A stretch of 23,831 bases of DNA from a virus. Shown here in pieces: positions 9,282-22,995 of this stretch; position 1 is the stretch's first letter, and each line of letters begins with the position of its first letter. The position numbers were made by a program, and so were the translations under genes. The DNA is taken from positions 1 to 23,831 of the IMG/VR virus record IMGVR_UViG_3300043408_000064, one strand, 5' to 3'. The notes under the pieces are model-generated. The model did no database searches, had not been told where the DNA came from, and was given only the letters and a program-made list of their open reading frames with translations.

Positions 9282-10031
9282 TCACGAGTAAGCCCGGATA
9301 ACAGACTTAACAAGCTCAGAACGCATCACGTCTTCAACCTCGAACTCATGATAGACAATGCTGTCATACTTGCTTTCCCAACCGTAAGGACCATCAACAA
9401 AGAATCGAGGAACAGCATCCAGCAGGGCATTACGACCCTTGCTATCAACGTATAGCTGCGTATTGTCACCCAGGACGACAACCTTAGAGTTGATACCCGT
9501 GCGTTCAAGCAGTAGCTTCAGGATCAGCGGAGGAAGCTGTTGCGCTTCATCGATACAGATCAGGGAGTTATCAAAGGTAGCACCCAGAGCAAAGTTAGGG
9601 ATCTTGAAGTGAATCCGATGACCAAGATCCGTCTCAACCTTACCCTTGCTGAGTAGTTGTTCAAGTAGAGCCTTGGCGCTGGCAAAGTGCGGTTCTAGCT
9701 TCTGTTCAGCACCATCGGGTAGGAAACCAATCCGATCCATACCCGCTTCAACAGGAGTACGAATAAAGATGATCTGCTTGGTGCTGTCCTTGAGGTATTC
9801 CTGAACGTACGTATACAGCACAGAAAGACTCTTACCAGTTCCAGCAGGACCGACACAGAAGGTAAGGTCGTTATTCAGGATCTTGCGACGGAGGGTATCT
9901 TGGGATTCCGTCAAGGTGAAACGATTGATACCGTTCTGTTGTTGCCAAGAGATGCGCTTCGGGGTATCGAGAATAGCTTTACCTTGGGTTTCCTTGAAGG
10001 AACGACGGGTGCTGCTCTTATTACGCTTCAT
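9282..10031 (-). CDS. phoH: PhoH-like P-loop ATPase
   Basis: 249 residues from ATG 10031 with GAAAGGA upstream. Walker A is GPAGTGKS at residues 61-68 and Walker B with following Gln is ICIDEAQQ at about 158-165; the conserved RTPVEAG (91-97) and LGDNTQ further on match PhoH, a superfamily 1 helicase-like ATPase domain. PhoH homologs are common in large phages; suggested roles are in RNA or nucleotide metabolism under phosphate stress, but the phage function is not settled. The stop lies about 90 bases before the protease start, so the two are probably co-transcribed leftwards. Confidence 0.93.
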   Translation of the reverse strand: MKRNKSSTRRSFKETQGKAILDTPKRISWQQQNGINRFTLTESQDTLRRKILNNDLTFCVGPAGTGKSLSVLYTYVQEYLKDSTKQIIFIRTPVEAGMDRIGFLPDGAEQKLEPHFASAKALLEQLLSKGKVETDLGHRIHFKIPNFALGATFDNSLICIDEAQQLPPLILKLLLERTGINSKVVVLGDNTQLYVDSKGRNALLDAVPRFFVDGPYGWESKYDSIVYHEFEVEDVMRSELVKSVIRAYS

Positions 10032-13747: not shown

Positions 13748-13785
13748 ACATCAATCCTCCTTCGCTTTGCTGTTTCGATACCCAG

Positions 13786-13814
13786 AATGTACGAGAGTCC
13801 AACACCCAGGTCAA
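13786..13814 (-). promoter_or_regulatory. Leftward sigma70-like promoter
   Basis: On the minus strand TTGACC (13809-13814), 17 bases, TACATT (13786-13791). The transcript would start about 30 bases before the ATG at 13747. The -35 is the same as at 488. Confidence 0.45.
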
Positions 13815-13876
13815 GACCTTGTTGTATTCCTGAGTAGACTCAAGGGTCTTTGAGAAGACAAGCCAGAAACGACAAA

Positions 13877-13920
13877 ACCCTCTGGAGTACTCAAGACTAG
13901 CAAGAGCACAACCAGAGGGT
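13877..13920 (-). terminator. Terminator upstream of the leftward operon
   Basis: ACCCTCTGG (13877-13885) pairs perfectly with CCAGAGGGT (13912-13920); on the minus strand it is followed by TTTTGTCG. A terminator placed before the first gene of the operon implies that another leftward transcript, likely noncoding, comes from the 14-15.6 kb region. Confidence 0.7.
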
Positions 13921-14115
13921 CTGTGTAGATTAACGATGACAGGAACAACTAGCAAGAAGCCATATAAATACTAGCGTAGTAGCAGTGGATGAACCGTAAG
14001 GTAAACCACCGTACAACCAATGCATACCTGCTGTAGTAATGCTGGCTAAACCATATGCATACCTGATGGATAACCTTATTACTCTTATATTTCATTAAGC
14101 TCATGGTAGGTACCT

Positions 14116-14161
14116 CAAGCCGGTAGGGCTTCCCTGCGGGATGCATGCTTCACGAGTGCAT
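14116..14161 (+). ncRNA. Structured element A (run of small hairpins)
   Basis: AAGCC-GGTAG-GGCTT (14116-14130), TCCC-TGC-GGGA (14130-14140) and GATGCA/TGCATC (14139-14161). The first two hairpins match, in reverse orientation, the hairpins at 15493-15516, so the module is duplicated. Downstream, CCTTTC/GAAAGG adds another stem near 14187-14210. Confidence 0.4.
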
Positions 14162-14282
14162 CAATCAGCAAGTCATATACGGTATACCTTTCATTGGATA
14201 ACGAAAGGGAATACGTATAAGTTATGCTGTTATAACTAAAGTTTAGTACCTAAGTATAAGAAAACTTAAGGATAAAACTTTC

Positions 14283-14390
14283 CTAAGACACAATATGGCC
14301 TTTTAGAGAACGTACAAATAGAAGTATGCCTCTATCTTCCCCGAAGGGATGTACATTCCTAAAAGCAGCCATAGAACCTTTGTGTCTTAG
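14283..14390 (-). ncRNA. Structured element B, nested multi-branched RNA candidate
   Basis: An outer 11-bp perfect stem (14283-14293 with 14380-14390) encloses TATGGC/GCCATA (14294-14299 with 14368-14373), TTTTAG/CTAAAA (14301-14306 with 14359-14364) and GTACA/TGTAC (14312-14316 with 14350-14354). Within these are two hairpins, ATAGA/TCTAT (14318-14335) and TCCC/GGGA (14338-14349). All helices are compatible. On the minus strand the last hairpin carries a C(UUCG)G tetraloop, which favours leftward transcription. No known RNA family is recognised. Confidence 0.6.
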
Positions 14391-14688
14391 AAAGATGATC
14401 AGGCTATTAACCCGCTTTCCTGAAGTCTCCACTCGTATTCCCATGCTGTACCAGGAGTTACCTAGCCGATACTGCACGCCTTTTACCTAACGAGTCCAAT
14501 CGTATCCAACAGCTACTGTACAGGTTCTGCACTTGTATTGCCTTCAACGATGTATGTGTCGGTTGGGATTATTGGTCAATTGCTTCAGACCTCGGATTGC
14601 TTACGCACGACGGTTGGGTATCTAGTCGCCTAGAACTTTGTAGCTCCGCAGTCTCCACCGCAGCATTTACCGTCTACCTTTACCCATG

Positions 14689-14791
14689 TGTAGCAGAAAC
14701 CTAAGAGAAGTGTATTAAAGAGCGTAGGGGTTGTGTTAGCAACCGCAAGGGTTGACGTACGTGTCAAAGACGCTCTTAAATTTCTGCTACA
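14689..14791 (+). ncRNA. Structured element C, three-way RNA candidate
   Basis: TGTAGCAGAAA (14689-14699) pairs with TTTCTGCTACA (14781-14791), and AAGAGCGT (14718-14725) with ACGCTCTT (14770-14777). Inside, GGTTG/CAACC (14729-14744) and TTGAC/GTCAA (14752-14767) make two hairpins; an alternative CAACC-GCAAG-GGTTG hairpin uses shared bases. The outer 11-bp and 8-bp stems are perfect. The strand is uncertain; a GCAA loop on the plus strand favours rightward. Confidence 0.5.
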
Positions 14792-14947
14792 TCTCTAAGT
14801 ATACACAAGTAAATCCTATTGTCAAGTCCTAAATGAATTATTTTCGATTTATTTTGAAAATAGTTCTGGAGAGTTGATTGGTGCTTCTGATGGAATACGT
14901 GAACACCGCTAGGAGGCCATAGGAAGATTTAGGTTGAACGAATGAAG

Positions 14948-15008
14948 ACTTAGGTATACACAGGTAGCCTGAACCTAAACAAATCGATTCTAGGCTGTTT
15001 AAACGATC
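14948..15008 (-). repeat. Dispersed repeat R1 (promoter-like, leftward)
   Basis: On the minus strand it contains GTTTAAACAGCCTAGAATCG, ATTTGTTTAG and, 18 bases after TTGTTT, TATACC. It matches 16208-16270 (opposite orientation) along about 60 bases. It points towards the leftward operon. Confidence 0.65.
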
Positions 15009-15291
15009 CTGAGGGTATACCTACGTAGATACGTCCTAAAGGACATAGCACCGTAGAGGTTCATACCAAAGAGATACAAAGAATCTATACAACAAGGACA
15101 AGCAAGCTAGCGAGATAGCTAACTCAAATACCAAAAAGAAACTAGATTTACTGAATAACTCAAGAGATACCACAAAGATATTAGTTAAACGAAAGTACAA
15201 ACAGGAGTATTACGTTTAATACCTATACAAGTAATTACATAACTCTAGGTGTTACTTGTCGAAGACCAATTTCACCTCTTCTACATCATCT

Positions 15292-15380
15292 ACACAACAG
15301 AACGATTTAAACGACCTACAAGGCTCTATCAGCCCTTGTGGCTACGTCTCCCTTAGTCCATGCAAACAAATCGATCCTAG
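15292..15380. repeat. Partial R-type repeats and a hairpin
   Basis: CGATTTAAACGACCTA at about 15303-15318 (plus) and AAACAAATCGATCCTAG at 15364-15380 (minus orientation of the core) are partial copies of R1 and R2. Between them ACAAGG-CT/AG-CCCTTGT forms a stem of 8 pairs with one bulged base (about 15318-15338). Confidence 0.45.
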
Positions 15381-15418
15381 AGCCTTCTAGAGCTATTCCT
15401 GCGTGTTTACTGGTATCC

Positions 15419-15520
15419 GCCCTGCGTTATACGTAAGTTTCACCGCCCGAAGGGCATTAAACCGCAGATGACAGCGCAGGGCAAGACCAGCCTTCCGCAG
15501 GAAAGCCTTCCGGCTTGAGG
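15419..15520 (-). ncRNA. Structured element E
   Basis: GCCCTGCG (15419-15426) pairs perfectly with CGCAGGGC (15475-15482) around GTTT/AAAC and GCCC-GAA-GGGC (15445-15455). It is followed by TTCC-GCA-GGAA (15493-15503) and AAGCC-TTCC-GGCTT (15503-15516); on the minus strand the last is a GGAA (GNRA) tetraloop. The last two hairpins repeat those of element A in inverse orientation. Confidence 0.5.
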
Positions 15521-15904
15521 GCCCTACACAGGTAAAGAGAAATAAAGCATTGTTGTATTAAATACTTATGTATTACCAGACGATGTGCTTGACAGCTTGG
15601 AAGCTAATAGATTCTTTGTATCTAACTGATGTATTACGTCAGTTTATACGTCTGTATGTTCTTTCTTACTTACTGGTTTTGGGGAGTTCGTGCACTCATT
15701 AACTTTGACTACGTGTTTAAGAGAGTTCAGAGAAAAGGGGAGATTGCTGAATTCCAATGTAAACCGACAGACAGTTGGCCTGACAGAAACCATCAAGATT
15801 CTTTATTGAAAACGTCAGCAGAATCGTTTGTCAGTTTCAGGCGTCTAGCGTGTCGACAGTTTCAATAGCTTTAGTAAGCGTTAGCGATACTAAAGCTATA
15901 CCGG

Positions 15905-16045
15905 ACGTATACCCGAGGTATACCCAACGTATATACGTCAGGAATTAATACTACTCGTATATACCTACGGTATTTATAGCAGTATTTACTAGCGTAATTA
16001 CTATAGTTATACATATGTATATACCTATGTATTACCCGTCGTATA
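15905..16045. repeat. Cluster of short TATACC/GTATA repeats
   Basis: GTATACCC, GGTATACCC, CGTATATACG, CGTATATACCTACGG, GTTATACATATGTATATACC and CCTATG follow one another over 140 bases, AT-rich and partly palindromic. Similar TATACC words are in the R repeats. Such clusters occur at origins or protein-nucleated regulatory DNA; no function can be shown here. Confidence 0.4.
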
Positions 16046-16207
16046 GTCTTTAGTCTAGCACCCGTGTCCCTTAATCTGCAAGTCCAAAGAGCATCTTCTG
16101 AACTTTATTTGGATTTATTTGCAAAAGAGTCCTTTAGCTCTTGACAAAGCTGTCATCAGTGTGCTATGTAAAAGACAACCTCTTGCACCTAGACATCCTG
16201 TATCGCT

Positions 16208-16270
16208 TCAGTAGACCGATTTAAACAGCTTAGGATCGATTTGTTTAGCGTTAGGCTACCCGTGTATCCC
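16208..16270 (+). repeat. Dispersed repeat R2 (promoter-like, rightward)
   Basis: Plus strand: GATTTAAACAGCTTAGGATC, GATTTGTTTAG and TATCCC 18 bases after TTGTTT. It is the inverted counterpart of R1 at 14948-15008 and points towards the packaging genes at 16847 onwards. Confidence 0.65.
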
Positions 16271-16604
16271 TTGGGTTGCGTTCGTCGATCCTACGACGTT
16301 CTAGAGCTTCCTAGAGGCATTGGTGACTTTCTGGTTGCTGGACTTCCGCTTCTGCACCAGCAAGATCATCAGAATCACGACTGAACATAGACCTGCGTCT
16401 GTACCTGCCCGTAGCGCGAGTAGCATACCAAAGTGCAGAAGTCAAGCGATTCGGTTGTATCGACGCAAATAAATTTTCATAAGCAAATCGCAGTAACTTG
16501 CTGATCTTCATAGCTTTTATTAATACATCGGAGACAGCTTGATCTTCGTTAGTACGTACTTACGCCTTTGGATTGTTATCAGATGTATCATCTCCTTGTT
16601 ACAT

Positions 16605-16613
16605 TGGTATAAT
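16605..16613 (+). promoter_or_regulatory. Extended -10 promoter for the packaging genes
   Basis: TG-G-TATAAT, a perfect extended -10 without a clear -35. The leader to 16847 holds a 14-base palindrome (16700-16713), GATATT-TCCG-AATATC (16762-16777) and CCTGG/CCAGG just before the first gene. Confidence 0.5.
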
Positions 16614-16846
16614 ACGTATATAACGAAAGATTAACTTTGTTGTATTCCTGCGTGTTTCTCCCTTGAAATAAAAGGTTTGTATTAAGCGCAACTTGACTGT
16701 TTCTAATTAGAAAATAGCAGAATCTATACAACAAAGAAACCTGTCCTATTTGGTGTTATTCGATATTTCCGAATATCCTAATGCTCTTATAGAACCCTGG
16801 ACAAGTAACCAGGACTACTCAATAACAATACAAATAAAGGATTAGA

Positions 16847-17083
16847 ATGCTCTGCAAATACTGCAAGTGCAAGTACAAACATACTCCTCTGCATACAGAA
16901 TGGGGTGCTTGTCTGCAATGTTCTGGTGTCACGGATGACCTGTGCGGTACCGATGACAACGATGTACTTGCTGATGTATGGGAGCTAGCTAACCCTAGTG
17001 GTAGGACGAAGAGTAAGATTCACGATGATGAAGACTCTCGCTCTGACGCATACCGAGACGGTCAAGACGCATTCGATCTTTAA
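16847..17083 (+). CDS. Small zinc-ribbon-like protein
   Basis: 78 residues from ATG 16847 with AAAGGA upstream. The N-terminus has CKYCKC (Cys3, Cys6, Cys8) and CLQC (Cys22, Cys25), with His12 and His16 between them, the layout of a zinc ribbon. The rest is acidic (CGTDDNDVLADVWEL, HDDEDSRSDAYRDGQD). Its TAA is 9 bases before the next start, so it is in the packaging operon. Probably a DNA- or protein-binding accessory factor; exact role unknown. Confidence 0.8.
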   Translation: MLCKYCKCKYKHTPLHTEWGACLQCSGVTDDLCGTDDNDVLADVWELANPSGRTKSKIHDDEDSRSDAYRDGQDAFDL

Positions 17084-18508: not shown

Positions 18509-20242
18509 ATGCCTGAAATTACAGACTTTAATCTTGACCAACGCAACGGCGGTTGGACTGCAGAATATTCGGACGGGACCGTTAAGACGGGTAACTTGAC
18601 CTCGGTGGCGGGGGATGGGAATCCTGTCGGGGTGCTGCTGATCGGCCAGTCGAACTGCGTCGGCTGGGACGCCAACGCTTTCGATGCTCGACTCGACTAT
18701 GTCCCGACCGGAGTGATGCAGTATTCGCCGGACGGCACGGGCACGGCCGCCTACGCTCGGCAAGTCGTCCCGGCCTCGAACCCACTGCTGTGGCCGAATT
18801 CGCAGTCGGCCAGTTTCGGCGTTAGCTCAGCCGGCCACTTTGCGGCGTGGGCGAACGTCCTCGGCTCCGAGGCGGGTCGTCTGGTGCTGATCCCCGCCGC
18901 TGTCGGCGGCACGGCGCTTGTGGGCAGTCGCTGGGCCTATCCTGCGGGGGATCTCTGCGCTCAAGCTGTGTCGACTGCCCGGCAGTTCCTCGCCGATGTT
19001 CCTGGCAGCCGGATCGGCTACATCGTGATCGTGCAGGGCGAGGCCGACGCCTCGGCGGGTGTATCCGGCCCCGCGTACCAGGCGGCGTTCGATGGGCTGA
19101 TCAACGGCCTGCGGTCGATCGCGGGCATGCAGGACGCTGTGGTCATTGTCGGCGGGATGGTCCCGGAATGGGTGGCCGAGCGCGCCGCTGCGGTAGTAAT
19201 TGCCGCGGTCCACGCTGAGGCTCCGCTGCGCCTGCCGCGTTGCATCTATGTCCCGGGTCCGACTGGTGCCAACAACAGCGTCCATTACACAGCCGCCGGG
19301 TACCGCATTGCCGGCCGCCGCTGGGCGCGGAAAGCCCTGACCCGATCCCATCTGCTGGATGCGCCGGCCGCGCCTGCCGTCACCGTCGCGGGCCGCACGC
19401 TGTCGGTCGTGATCCCGGCCACCGATTGCGCCGCGGTCGAGGTCGATTACCGGCCGATCGGCGGGGACTGGACGACTGTCCGGCTGCCGATCACCTACTG
19501 GGAGCCTGGCACGGTGCTGTCGCATGCCGTGCCAGGCGAACTGGCGGCCGAGGCCAGGGCGCGCGCGATCAATCACGTGGGCAGCACCGTCAGCGAAACG
19601 CTGCAGGTCGATGCCGTTACCGGGGACACCGCATCCGGCCTGCTGGCGCGGCTGAATTTTGAAGATTCGGCAAACCTCGGAGCGAACGACGTCGGCGCGA
19701 CCTTTGCCGTGTCGTCGGTAACGCAGGCTACCGACGCGGTGCGCGGCAAGGTCGCCGTTTTCGGAGGCGGGGCCACTCGCACCGCCGTGCATCTTTCGAC
19801 GCTCGATCTTCCTCAGCCCGCCTATACGAAAGCCGCGTGGATCCTGTGGGACGGCACTCAGGCGGCATCTGGCTACACCAATATCCTGAGTGGCGACGCT
19901 TCGGTCGACACCGGGGACCACGTTTTCGGCATTCATGGCGGGATGGTGAAGGCCTCTGACGGTGGCCTATCGAGCCTGTTTTCCTCGGGGATCACGCCGG
20001 CTGCTGGAGTGTGGGAGCACTGGGCCGTCACTCGCGATGCTGAAGGACTCCAGATCCTCTACCGGAACGGGACCGAGGTCGCGCGCCGTACGGGATCCCC
20101 GACGACCACGGCCGGTGCCGGCACGAGCATCGGGTCATTCAACTCCGGGGCGAACAACAACTGGCAGGGTCGTCTGGACGATGTGCGGCTCTACAACCGC
20201 GCGCTTGCGCCGAACGACATCCTGGTCCTCGCTTCGACCTGA
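18509..20242 (+). CDS. Adhesin/esterase: SASA-type esterase plus LamG domain
   Basis: 577 residues from ATG 18509 with AGGAGG upstream. Residues 1-32 are the phage-like part (EYSDGTVKTGNLTS). Residues ~38-280 match the SGNH/sialate O-acetylesterase type: GQSN with Ser48, QGEAD (176-180) and SVHYTAAGY with His259. Residues ~285-370 look like a beta-sandwich linker (fibronectin III-like), and ~375-577 like a concanavalin/LamG domain ending in LDDVRLYNRAL. It probably deacetylates or binds host surface glycans as a tail fibre or spike. From about base 18600 the DNA becomes strongly GC-rich, unlike its neighbours, showing a domain acquired from a high-GC source. Substrate unknown. Confidence 0.85.
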   Translation: MPEITDFNLDQRNGGWTAEYSDGTVKTGNLTSVAGDGNPVGVLLIGQSNCVGWDANAFDARLDYVPTGVMQYSPDGTGTAAYARQVVPASNPLLWPNSQSASFGVSSAGHFAAWANVLGSEAGRLVLIPAAVGGTALVGSRWAYPAGDLCAQAVSTARQFLADVPGSRIGYIVIVQGEADASAGVSGPAYQAAFDGLINGLRSIAGMQDAVVIVGGMVPEWVAERAAAVVIAAVHAEAPLRLPRCIYVPGPTGANNSVHYTAAGYRIAGRRWARKALTRSHLLDAPAAPAVTVAGRTLSVVIPATDCAAVEVDYRPIGGDWTTVRLPITYWEPGTVLSHAVPGELAAEARARAINHVGSTVSETLQVDAVTGDTASGLLARLNFEDSANLGANDVGATFAVSSVTQATDAVRGKVAVFGGGATRTAVHLSTLDLPQPAYTKAAWILWDGTQAASGYTNILSGDASVDTGDHVFGIHGGMVKASDGGLSSLFSSGITPAAGVWEHWAVTRDAEGLQILYRNGTEVARRTGSPTTTAGAGTSIGSFNSGANNNWQGRLDDVRLYNRALAPNDILVLAST

Positions 20243-20349: not shown

Positions 20350-22995
20350 TTGTCTGATGAAGTAATGACACTCGCCCCTGCTAGTAAAAAGCAAGAGCAA
20401 TTCCTGAACTCAGACGCGACGATTACCTTAGCTGGAGGAAGTGCCGGGTGCTTTGACAAAGACACTGAATACCTTACTCCTGAAGGTTGGAAGAAGTTCT
20501 CTGAGTACAAAGAGGGTGAATTGGTTGCTGAATACAACCCTACTCGGGAAACGGTACTGTTTACAGAACCTCTTGAATACATCAAGAAACCCTGTGAACT
20601 GTTCTACCGCTTTGTCTCGGATGACTTTGACTTCTGTCTGAGCGCTGAACATCGTGTTGCGTATTTTGATACTCCAAACGGAACGATCCAGACGATTCTT
20701 GCTGAAGAATTGTTTGCTCGTCTGAAGGAAAAGTCATTTACAGGCTTTGTCCTCGTATTCACCAAAGAAGGTCGAAAGTACGTTCCGATTGAGACGTGTA
20801 ATGCCTTCTTGCAATACACCAAGAATGCTAATAAGTACTGTTTTTCGGTACAGAGCACATTCCTTCTGGTTCGTCGCTCTGGGATGGTTTACGTCAGTGG
20901 TAACTCTGGAAAGGCTCTCCGACACGGTGAGAAAGTCCTGACAGACCAAGGTTTTCGCAATATCGAAGATGTCGCTGTTGGTGATACTGTAATCACGCCA
21001 AATAACACCAAGGAAACGATTGTTGGTGTTTACCCTCAAGGTCTAGTGCATATCTATCGTGTGACCTTCTGGGATGGTTCTACTGTAGATACTTGTGGTG
21101 AGCATCTGTGGTCTGTGCGATACGACATTGAATCCGACTTTGCCGTACAGAACACCTTGCAGCTCCGAGAGAAACTACGAGACGGTCATCAACCTCGTAT
21201 TCCAATCACTGATGCACTTGACCTTCCTGGTTCGACGATCCAACAGACTCTTGATCGCTGCAAGAAGTACTTCAAGAACGCAAGCAATCCGGATGACAAC
21301 GACAGTCTGTATCACGCCTTTCCTCTAGGATTGACGAATTGGGCTGTCCTGGCTCCTGCTGAAGAACTACCTGCTCTACAGCAGGACTTTCGCTCTCTTG
21401 GTTTCCTAGCTCGATTGAATGCTTCTGGTACAGGTCTGACGATTCGAGGTAAAGACTTCAGCATGTTGCTTGACCCTGAATACAACCTTGACGTGTACCC
21501 AGAAGTCGATAACTTCATCCTGAAGATCGAAGCTATCGGTCAAGACTACGCAACCTGCATTGCAATCTCTGGTCCTGACAAGCTGTTCATCACGTCGAAT
21601 TTCGTCGTTACGCACAATACGTTCGTGTCCCTCCTAATCGCTCTAAAGTTCATGCAACACCCTAGGGCAACAGGAGTAATCTTCCGTCGTACCAGCAAAA
21701 TGATTACCTCTCCTGGTAGTATTTGGCACGAAGCTGTAAGTCTATATACAAGCGTCTACAAAACAGGATTGCGTATCCGACATCGGGAAAACGAAATTGT
21801 CTTTCCTAATGGTGCTCTGTTGAAGTTCAGTCACATGCAGCACGCAAGTAATATGTATGACCATAAGGGTGGACAATACAGCCTAGTCATCTTTGATGAA
21901 GCAACTGATTTCACAGAAGAAATGGTTGTGTATCTGCTGTCTCGTATGCGTAATGCCTACGTAGACTACAAACCGCAGATGTTCATGATGACTAACCCTG
22001 ACTACAACAGCTTTTTGAGGCATTGGATTCAGGATTACTACCTAGATCCTACCGGTCTTCCATACCAAGAACGCAGCGGTCATAAGAGATATTTCTTCCG
22101 TCAAGGCAACAGTATGCTTTGGTATAACAGCCTTGAAGAAGCAGAAGCTGTTCACGGTTCTGGCGCGGAGAGTGGCATTAGCTCGTTCTCTTTCATTCCA
22201 GCCACTTGTCGGGACAACCCTCCTCTGCTCAAGGCACAACCAGACTACATCAGTCGATTGATGTCTCTACCTCGCGTAGAAATGGAACGACTCCTGCTTG
22301 GGTCTTGGTTTGCTAGACCGGAAGCATCGGGGTTGTTTAAGCGCGAGTGGTGCGAGATTGTGAAGTATCCGAATGCTCGTGCTATCAAGCGAGTAAGGTG
22401 TTGGGACTTTGCGATGTCTCTACCTTCAGAGCAATACCCGAATCCTGACTGGACACGAGGAACGCTTGTATCTAAGGATAAGCAGAGTGTCTATACAGTA
22501 GAAGACATGGTGTCTATCCGTGATCGTGTTCACAAGGTCGAAGACTTGCTTTTCCGTACTGCGATCCGAGATGGTCAAGAGGTTGTGATTAGTATTCCTC
22601 TTGATCCTGCTGCCGCTGCTGGTGCGTATGCTCGTGACCTAGCTCGTAGGCTTGCTGAAATGGGTTTTACTGTAAAGCTACAGAAACCCGTCAAGAGCAA
22701 GATGGTTCGTTTTGCTCCTTTCAGTTCCTTGGCTCAAGCTGGCTTTGTTCAGGTTGTCGAAGGAGATTGGAACAAGGACTTCTTTGAAGAGCTAGAGATA
22801 TTCGACGGTGACAAGAAGCGTAAAGACGATATTGTTGATACGTGCTCCGATGCGGTGATTGTTCTAAACAAAGAACTACAACTACCTTCGTTTAGTCTAC
22901 CGACAGACCTTACGGGGTCTGGTACGCATCAATTTGGGTTTCAGCAGAACAGTATTAGTACAGGCGGGTCCGTAGAAGGATTCACCTTAGTCTGA
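20350..22995 (+). CDS. terL: Terminase large subunit with two inteins
   Basis: 881 residues from TTG 20350 (AAGAAGG 8 bases upstream; ATG 20365 is the alternative). The mature extein (33 + 3 + 458 = 494 residues) is the packaging motor: Walker A AGGSAGSGKT is split by two inteins, Walker B LVIFDE (512-517), coupling motif MTNP (547-550), and nuclease acids Asp686 (CWDFA), Asp752 (PLDP) and Asp826/827/830 (KDDIVD). It translocates DNA into the capsid with ATP and cuts concatemers. Both inteins must leave before the P-loop exists. The portal gene follows 41 bases after the stop. Confidence 0.96.
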   Translation: MSDEVMTLAPASKKQEQFLNSDATITLAGGSAGCFDKDTEYLTPEGWKKFSEYKEGELVAEYNPTRETVLFTEPLEYIKKPCELFYRFVSDDFDFCLSAEHRVAYFDTPNGTIQTILAEELFARLKEKSFTGFVLVFTKEGRKYVPIETCNAFLQYTKNANKYCFSVQSTFLLVRRSGMVYVSGNSGKALRHGEKVLTDQGFRNIEDVAVGDTVITPNNTKETIVGVYPQGLVHIYRVTFWDGSTVDTCGEHLWSVRYDIESDFAVQNTLQLREKLRDGHQPRIPITDALDLPGSTIQQTLDRCKKYFKNASNPDDNDSLYHAFPLGLTNWAVLAPAEELPALQQDFRSLGFLARLNASGTGLTIRGKDFSMLLDPEYNLDVYPEVDNFILKIEAIGQDYATCIAISGPDKLFITSNFVVTHNTFVSLLIALKFMQHPRATGVIFRRTSKMITSPGSIWHEAVSLYTSVYKTGLRIRHRENEIVFPNGALLKFSHMQHASNMYDHKGGQYSLVIFDEATDFTEEMVVYLLSRMRNAYVDYKPQMFMMTNPDYNSFLRHWIQDYYLDPTGLPYQERSGHKRYFFRQGNSMLWYNSLEEAEAVHGSGAESGISSFSFIPATCRDNPPLLKAQPDYISRLMSLPRVEMERLLLGSWFARPEASGLFKREWCEIVKYPNARAIKRVRCWDFAMSLPSEQYPNPDWTRGTLVSKDKQSVYTVEDMVSIRDRVHKVEDLLFRTAIRDGQEVVISIPLDPAAAAGAYARDLARRLAEMGFTVKLQKPVKSKMVRFAPFSSLAQAGFVQVVEGDWNKDFFEELEIFDGDKKRKDDIVDTCSDAVIVLNKELQLPSFSLPTDLTGSGTHQFGFQQNSISTGGSVEGFTLV
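20449..20904 (+). mobile_element. Intein 1 in TerL (Cys1, mini-intein)
   Basis: 152 residues (TerL 34-185), inserted after GGSAG. Starts with Cys34 (CFDKDTEYLTPEGWKKF, block A), has block B LSAEHRVAYF with His101, and ends CFSVQSTFLLVRRSGMVYVS-GN before Ser186. This is a class 1 intein: Cys nucleophile, terminal Asn, Ser +1. The penultimate residue is Gly instead of His, a variant seen in phage terminase inteins. There is no room for a homing endonuclease domain. Confidence 0.9.
20914..21618 (+). mobile_element. Intein 2 in TerL (Ala1, class 3-like)
   Basis: 235 residues (TerL 189-423), inserted between Lys188 and Thr424 of the P-loop. It begins with Ala (ALRHGEKVLTDQGF), so the usual Cys/Ser1 is absent. 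Block B CGEHLWSV has His252 and Trp254, block F has Cys403 (TCIAISGPDKLFIT), and it ends FVVTHN with Thr421, His422, Asn423. Trp, block-F Cys and Thr are the triplet that defines class 3 inteins, where the block F Cys is the nucleophile. The middle ~120 residues may be a decayed endonuclease remnant (e.g. LQQDFRSLGFLARLN). Confidence 0.9.

Follow-up and report, generated by a model that had tools for sequence, protein, structure and literature searches.

A phage large terminase with two predicted inteins of different families, three residues apart, in its Walker A motif

The window analysed here, a single IMG/VR virus entry (IMGVR_UViG_3300043408_000064) taken over its whole length of 23,831 bases, carries a gene for the large terminase subunit (terL), and the next gene codes for the portal protein. 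The terL product matches the large terminase domains Terminase_6C (PF17289, E 7.9e-14), Terminase_6N (PF03237, 2.9e-12) and Terminase_3 (PF04466, 1.7e-8), each above its curated cut-off, as well as phrog_979 (terminase large subunit, 4e-149). By TerL the closest named phage is Limnohabitans phage DC31, with 73% identity in the C-terminal part. Translation starts at TTG, although an ATG five codons downstream is also a possible start; the frame is unbroken from end to end, and the window contains no N. The gene is made up as follows:

20350..22995, plus strand: terL open reading frame, 881-aa precursor (881 codons, TTG start, stop included)
20350..20448, plus strand: N-extein, 33 aa, ending ...LAGGSAG, delimited by alignment with intein-free relatives
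20449..20904, plus strand: intein 1, 152 aa (C1 ... S65-A-E-H68-R69-V70 ... K-Y-C131-F ... S150-G151-N152, then Ser+1), devoid of an endonuclease domain
20905..20913, plus strand: middle extein Ser-Gly-Lys (TCTGGAAAG), read from the sequence
20914..21618, plus strand: intein 2, 235 aa, class 3 (A1, H64, W66, C215, T233, H234, N235, then Thr+1)
21619..22995, plus strand: C-extein, 458 aa, the remaining ATPase and the RNaseH-like nuclease, from Pfam and PHROG matches
21880..21906, plus strand: Walker B motif SLVIFDEAT, read from the sequence

The initial annotation had placed two separate inteins, of 152 and 235 residues with SGK between them, in this one Walker A motif. Translation bears out these coordinates and sizes to the base, and the 494-residue extein is confirmed by arithmetic (33 + 152 + SGK + 235 + 458 = 881 aa). 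Removal of both inserts restores the P-loop exactly, as had been claimed (AGGSAG-SGK-TF), and the loop is uninterrupted in relatives, those at 75-80% identity reading ...TITLAGGAAGSGK/TYTSLLIALK, where the slash, here and below, marks an intein junction. The mature chain is predicted to contain both Walker A (GGSAGSGKT once both inserts are removed) and Walker B. That the inserts are two distinct inteins is supported by homologous alleles carrying neither, only the first or only the second, by predicted Hint folds, and by full sets of catalytic residues. The pattern consisting of the end of the site-1 intein followed by SGK occurs once in the window and in none of 100 shuffles. This result, together with the conservation of catalytic residues in the family of each insert, excludes chance. 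The sole Pfam Intein_splicing match in the window, at 22534-22671 on the minus strand and antisense in terL, was rejected, as it scored 18.3 bits against a cut-off of 35.8 and contains an internal stop.

Related alleles were examined in 54 terminases of 67-86% identity in which the P-loop is readable (53 from one search plus the relative L208; counted by hand). The P-loop is uninterrupted in 48 of them, most reading AGGAAGSGKTYTSLL. One relative (L051, 73% identity) has its sole insert at AG/SGK (site 1) with site 2 empty, and another (L208, 75% identity) has its sole insert at GK/T (site 2) with site 1 empty; the remaining four have an intervening sequence in the same P-loop codons, recognised as a group I intron in all three that were tested (L030, L052 and L053; L032 is identical to L030 there). 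Compared with insert-free homologues, the insertion is precise to the residue at both sites in the window, and likewise at each site alone in L051 and L208. Because uninterrupted relatives exist alongside L051 and L208, the borders of both inteins are fixed without recourse to motifs. Single occupancy recurs among more distant terminases: the one from Acinetobacter phage TaPaz has an intein at site 2 alone, and the ones from Vibrio phage vB_CoeS_P1 and Escherichia phage ESCO5 have an intein at site 1 alone. The comparison of related terL genes for one, both or neither intein, proposed in the initial annotation, thus returned empty, site-1-only and site-2-only alleles and no second double. On the TerL tree the insertion states are scattered and require 11 changes in all. 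Relatives considered for selection tests are about 40% identical, so that silent sites are saturated.

Several further features of these relatives were recorded. Intein site 1 is 3 nt away from the introns, which lie between GGAA and GSGK (4726-4960 in L030, 4703-4959 in L052 and 2939-3208 in L053, with L032 sharing the position); in L030 the 5' exon terminates in T and the intron in G. An HNH-like gene stands just upstream of terL in the four intron-bearing relatives. A near relative of the intron carriers, L048, has no intron, and the terL gene of L064 contains two group I introns farther down (780-1000 and 1436-1684), one above and one under the Rfam cut-off. In Vibrio phage 277E43-1, a terL gene with a site-1 intein runs for just 281 codons before stopping close to where the record ends, and may be cut or rearranged; a partial HNH gene lies upstream of it.

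Intein 1 is matched by no Pfam or NCBIfam model, and within its family Pfam detects Hint_2 in one of 51 members and LAGLIDADG_3 in 14 of the 51. At 152 aa it is short for its family, most relatives measuring about 310-330 aa, and it lacks LAGLIDADG motifs. The 51-member alignment has invariant C1, T6, W14, H68, Y130, C131, F132, G151 and N152, of which Y130, C131, F132, G151 and N152 owe part of their invariance to the search pattern. A Cys start likewise served to delimit the members, so that the conservation at all of these positions is biased. The AlphaFold model predicts a Hint fold with confidence (pLDDT 96.7, pTM 0.88), and its leading matches among PDB structures are all Hint domains, the best being 6zgq (Z 22.2, 1.8 A over 145 residues) against Z 16.8 for the second. 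A sequence profile search likewise places 6zgq first, at 2.8e-9, with the next match at 0.0014. This structure is the split class 3 intein AceL NrdHF (PMC7891396), the closest solved fold, which shares with intein 1 S65, H68, R69, the block-F Cys and the penultimate Gly. The two differ in that AceL NrdHF, a split intein residing in NrdHF, carries Ala at position 1 and Met at N3:12, against Cys1 and Val70 in the continuous intein 1. The penultimate Gly replaces the usual His, and other inteins with Gly at this position do splice (PMC5050341, PMC7891396).

Assignment of intein 1 to a class depends on whether sequence rule or kinship is followed. Cys1 conforms to class 1, which has Cys or Ser at position 1, and departs from class 3, which has no nucleophile there; of the class 3 WCT triplet only Cys131 is present, Val70 standing for Trp and Ser150 for Thr. 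A class 3 mechanism has been demonstrated in AceL NrdHF despite absence of the usual Trp (PMC7891396). Among 116 members of the intein-1 family, collected by a start-site search blind to position 1, that position is Cys in 106, Pro in nine and Ser in one. The Pro1 members retain the block-F Cys (L106, L114, L118, L142, L145, L146, L151, L164 and L199). On a tree built without position 1, Pro1 and Cys1 members are intermixed, with at least three changes on well-supported branches, and both kinds occupy the same junction, GPFG/.../SGK. As proline is unable to act as a nucleophile, the block-F Cys is the likely starter in the Pro1 members, and perhaps in all; the intermixing at one junction further implies that Cys1 may be dispensable. 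Intein 1 is therefore class 1 by the sequence rule and by kinship may act like class 3, and its group suggests a large phage intein family, almost invisible to Pfam, that lies between the two classes.

Intein 2 carries the full WCT signature described for class 3 inteins (PMC5050341, PMC7891396), namely Trp at N3:12 (W66), Cys at C2:4 (C215) and Thr at C1:5 (T233). Its position 1 is the non-nucleophile Ala, as in all nine members of alignment A1, and it ends in Asn (N235) followed by Thr+1. In a 36-member alignment G13, H64, W66, C215, I216, V232, H234 and N235 are invariant and T233 is conserved in at least 90%. A single-sequence search with intein 2 alone for related loci found nothing, whereas an alignment-based search with its family gave at least 510 relatives. 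The model again predicts a confident Hint fold (pLDDT 90.4, pTM 0.88) and is best matched by the class 3 DnaB intein of M. smegmatis (6bs8, Z 20.1, 1.8 A over 125 residues). The model also superposes on PI-SceI, with Z 18.7 across 223 residues, and a search with the family profile recovers PI-SceI at 2e-9 through the middle region; the middle of intein 2 is therefore read as the remnant of a LAGLIDADG domain. The copy in L208 keeps the motifs GDGSI and DTDGY; intein 2 here lacks about 100 residues that include both.

Together, these observations make it very probable that the Walker A motif GGSAGSGKT of a phage large terminase has been invaded at two adjacent points by inteins of two families, both predicted to splice. 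The positions, the homologous empty and single-intein alleles and the catalytic residues are observed directly, and the folds are predicted. Since both inteins have lost the endonuclease motifs that relatives carry, they are probably fixed passengers; this loss, the class 3 identity of intein 2 and the ambiguous class of intein 1 are additions to the initial annotation. The same loss is compatible with a further stage of decay, in which one or both inserts would be splicing-dead and the phage defective or the gene decaying; degeneration is indeed the expected late stage of a homing cycle. All splicing residues of both families are nevertheless retained, the reading frame and the terminase domains are intact, and terL is essential in a tailed phage, so that loss of splicing would be lethal; decay of this kind is accordingly quite improbable. 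With two Hint folds in one chain and the right nucleophiles at the outermost splice junctions, crossed processing is conceivable as the source of a minor product compatible with the computations: the N-terminal half of intein 1 and the C-terminal half of intein 2 would together remove the interior from G33 to T424, leaving a terminase without SGK, a dead isoform. Each insert, however, is complete, has a confident fold alone and is found alone at its own site in relatives, and the GGSAGTF product would be without the Walker lysine; the probability of this outcome is negligible.

The initial annotation had called the pair very unusual, and wide scans agree. No second double was found in 2.9 million viral contigs with any of three junction designs. 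The end of the intein-1 family followed by [STC]GK occurs in at least 120 stretches of viral contigs; among 127 such places listed, two are chance matches, and in the others GK is followed almost without exception by Ser or Thr, and no second intein is present. The same pattern with Ala, a class 3 start, after GK gave no stretch in the 2.9 million contigs, and two HN-[STC]GK-Ala patterns gave chance matches or none in viral contigs, three matches to HN-SGK-AQP being set aside because they lie outside any intein. In 84,980 prokaryote genomes the double-junction pattern gave only chance matches, four in number and rejected on the same ground, and none of the best 80 class 3 relatives is preceded by an intein. 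An apparent match across both inteins in the 'PhoH' of GX15bay proved to be a single class 3 intein located outside any P-loop. The scans are strong evidence of rarity, short of proof of uniqueness, given that the patterns are blind to another kind of second intein and that records very near the window may be absent from the collections.

The double-intein allele is known from one metagenomic record, and rarity of this order, together with the presence of both kinds of single-site allele in related phages, is also what would be seen if site-1 and site-2 populations had been joined in silico or during amplification and no genome had both inserts. Such single alleles would share just the 9 bp of the SGK codons at the join, which is less than the k-mer length of usual assemblers and argues against an assembly chimera; in addition, the window is free of N and GC3 is uniform over all segments (0.455 in the N-extein, 0.467 in intein 1, 0.464 in intein 2 and 0.451 in the C-extein). 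A chimera is for these reasons very improbable.

The individual parts of the arrangement have precedents. As here, the mycobacteriophage inteins TerL1-a and TerL1-b lie in the Walker A motif of the large terminase, TerL1-a at K/T like intein 2, and several TerL inteins have been demonstrated to splice (Kelley et al. 2016, PMC5050341). The a and b positions are one residue apart and are described as sites; the part of that paper available reports no gene with both, describes no G/SGK site and concerns the TerL1 family, while the present protein belongs to Terminase_6. The TerL inteins of TaPaz (MZ043613) and L208 are class 3 inteins at GK/T of related terminases, as is intein 2, but site 1 is empty in both and L208 retains two LAGLIDADG motifs; conversely, the TerLs of vB_CoeS_P1, ESCO5 and L051 carry a member of the intein-1 family at AG/SGK, as here, with site 2 empty. 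Two inteins also share one ATPase gene in the MCM pair (PMC10643990), where MCM-a lies in Walker A after the lysine; there the sites are in different elements of the catalytic domain, with MCM-d lining the DNA channel, and both endonucleases are active, whereas the motifs are lost here. Two filled sites in one protein are likewise known from P. abyssi CDC21 (mini-inteins) and T. kodakarensis DNA polymerase (PMC8966425), and their spacings of 48 and 85 residues, against three here, are the nearest found in a survey mainly of openly accessible papers. Inteins, P-loop insertion and multi-intein genes are known already. Neither the scans nor the papers surveyed yielded another Walker A motif occupied twice with a middle extein of three residues; the arrangement is an extreme combination of known parts.

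A plausible course of maturation can be proposed. Each insert would fold as its own Hint domain; intein 1 would join Gly-1 to Ser+1, starting from Cys1 or block-F Cys131, and for intein 2 the class 3 route, initiated at block-F Cys215, would ligate Lys-1 with Thr+1. Each would splice by itself, the first to leave placing the other between native extein residues, and either order of excision would yield the 494-residue terminase with an intact P-loop. The two reactions would have to tolerate one another, as the initial annotation argued. The Walker A motif has an established role in ATP binding. While either intein remains in place, the Gly, Lys and Thr of the P-loop stay separated, so normal ATP binding would be impossible and the packaging ATPase of the precursor should be inactive. 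A delay in packaging competence is thus predicted, which need not be adaptive. One could suppose that the delay is the function, conditional splicing of the precursor timing packaging with two locks instead of one, and conditional splicing is described for other ATPase inteins (PMC6195587, PMC7360933). With a single double and 54 close relatives lacking one, the distribution is sporadic and better suits mobile passengers; a regulatory device has little probability. It is also doubtful, though less so, that the two reactions are coupled, SGK being too short for two simultaneous reactive geometries, with a fixed order in which the second excision depends on the first, and with intein 1 a class 3 intein that has retained Cys1. 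Were this the case, a block-F cysteine would initiate both of the splicing reactions that restore the P-loop. The locus makes testable the smallest extein that two Hint domains can share with clean splicing, which bears on the use of orthogonal inteins in series.

The two inteins were probably acquired separately, and the anatomy of the locus constrains how. Homing copies an insert together with flanking homology. For a second homing event to keep the resident insert, the repair tract would have to end inside the 9-bp SGK segment; any tract reaching farther would replace the resident insert with the incoming one. As each insert also disrupts the target of the other, how a second adjacent insertion can arise at all is a puzzle, and one open to experiment. 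Neighbouring MCM inteins interfere with each other's homing (PMC10643990), and such interference, combined with the limit on the repair tract, may explain why doubles are almost never encountered although single inteins and intron alleles are. Neither insert, each alone, both, and a group I intron within the same five codons form a compact natural series for the study of competition between mobile elements.

Elsewhere in the window, the gene at 18509-20242, between the presumed TerS gene and terL, encodes a SASA-type carbohydrate esterase that also contains a LamG-like domain; its GC of about 0.67, compared with 0.42-0.50 in the surroundings, leads us to read it as a recent import. On neither strand does a 3.3-kb stretch at 13750-17080 (GC about 0.41) contain an open reading frame as long as 80 aa; it also contains no tRNA and matches nothing in Rfam or, by blastn, in the phage collection. 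The predicted protein at 550-1128 has an end resembling a PEP-CTERM sorting motif, just under the Pfam cut-off and unusual in a phage. The same record encodes a PhoH-like ATPase (9282-10031, minus strand) whose P-loop, GPAGTGKS, is uninterrupted, although PhoH P-loops occupied by related inteins occur elsewhere (phrog_32482, L074).
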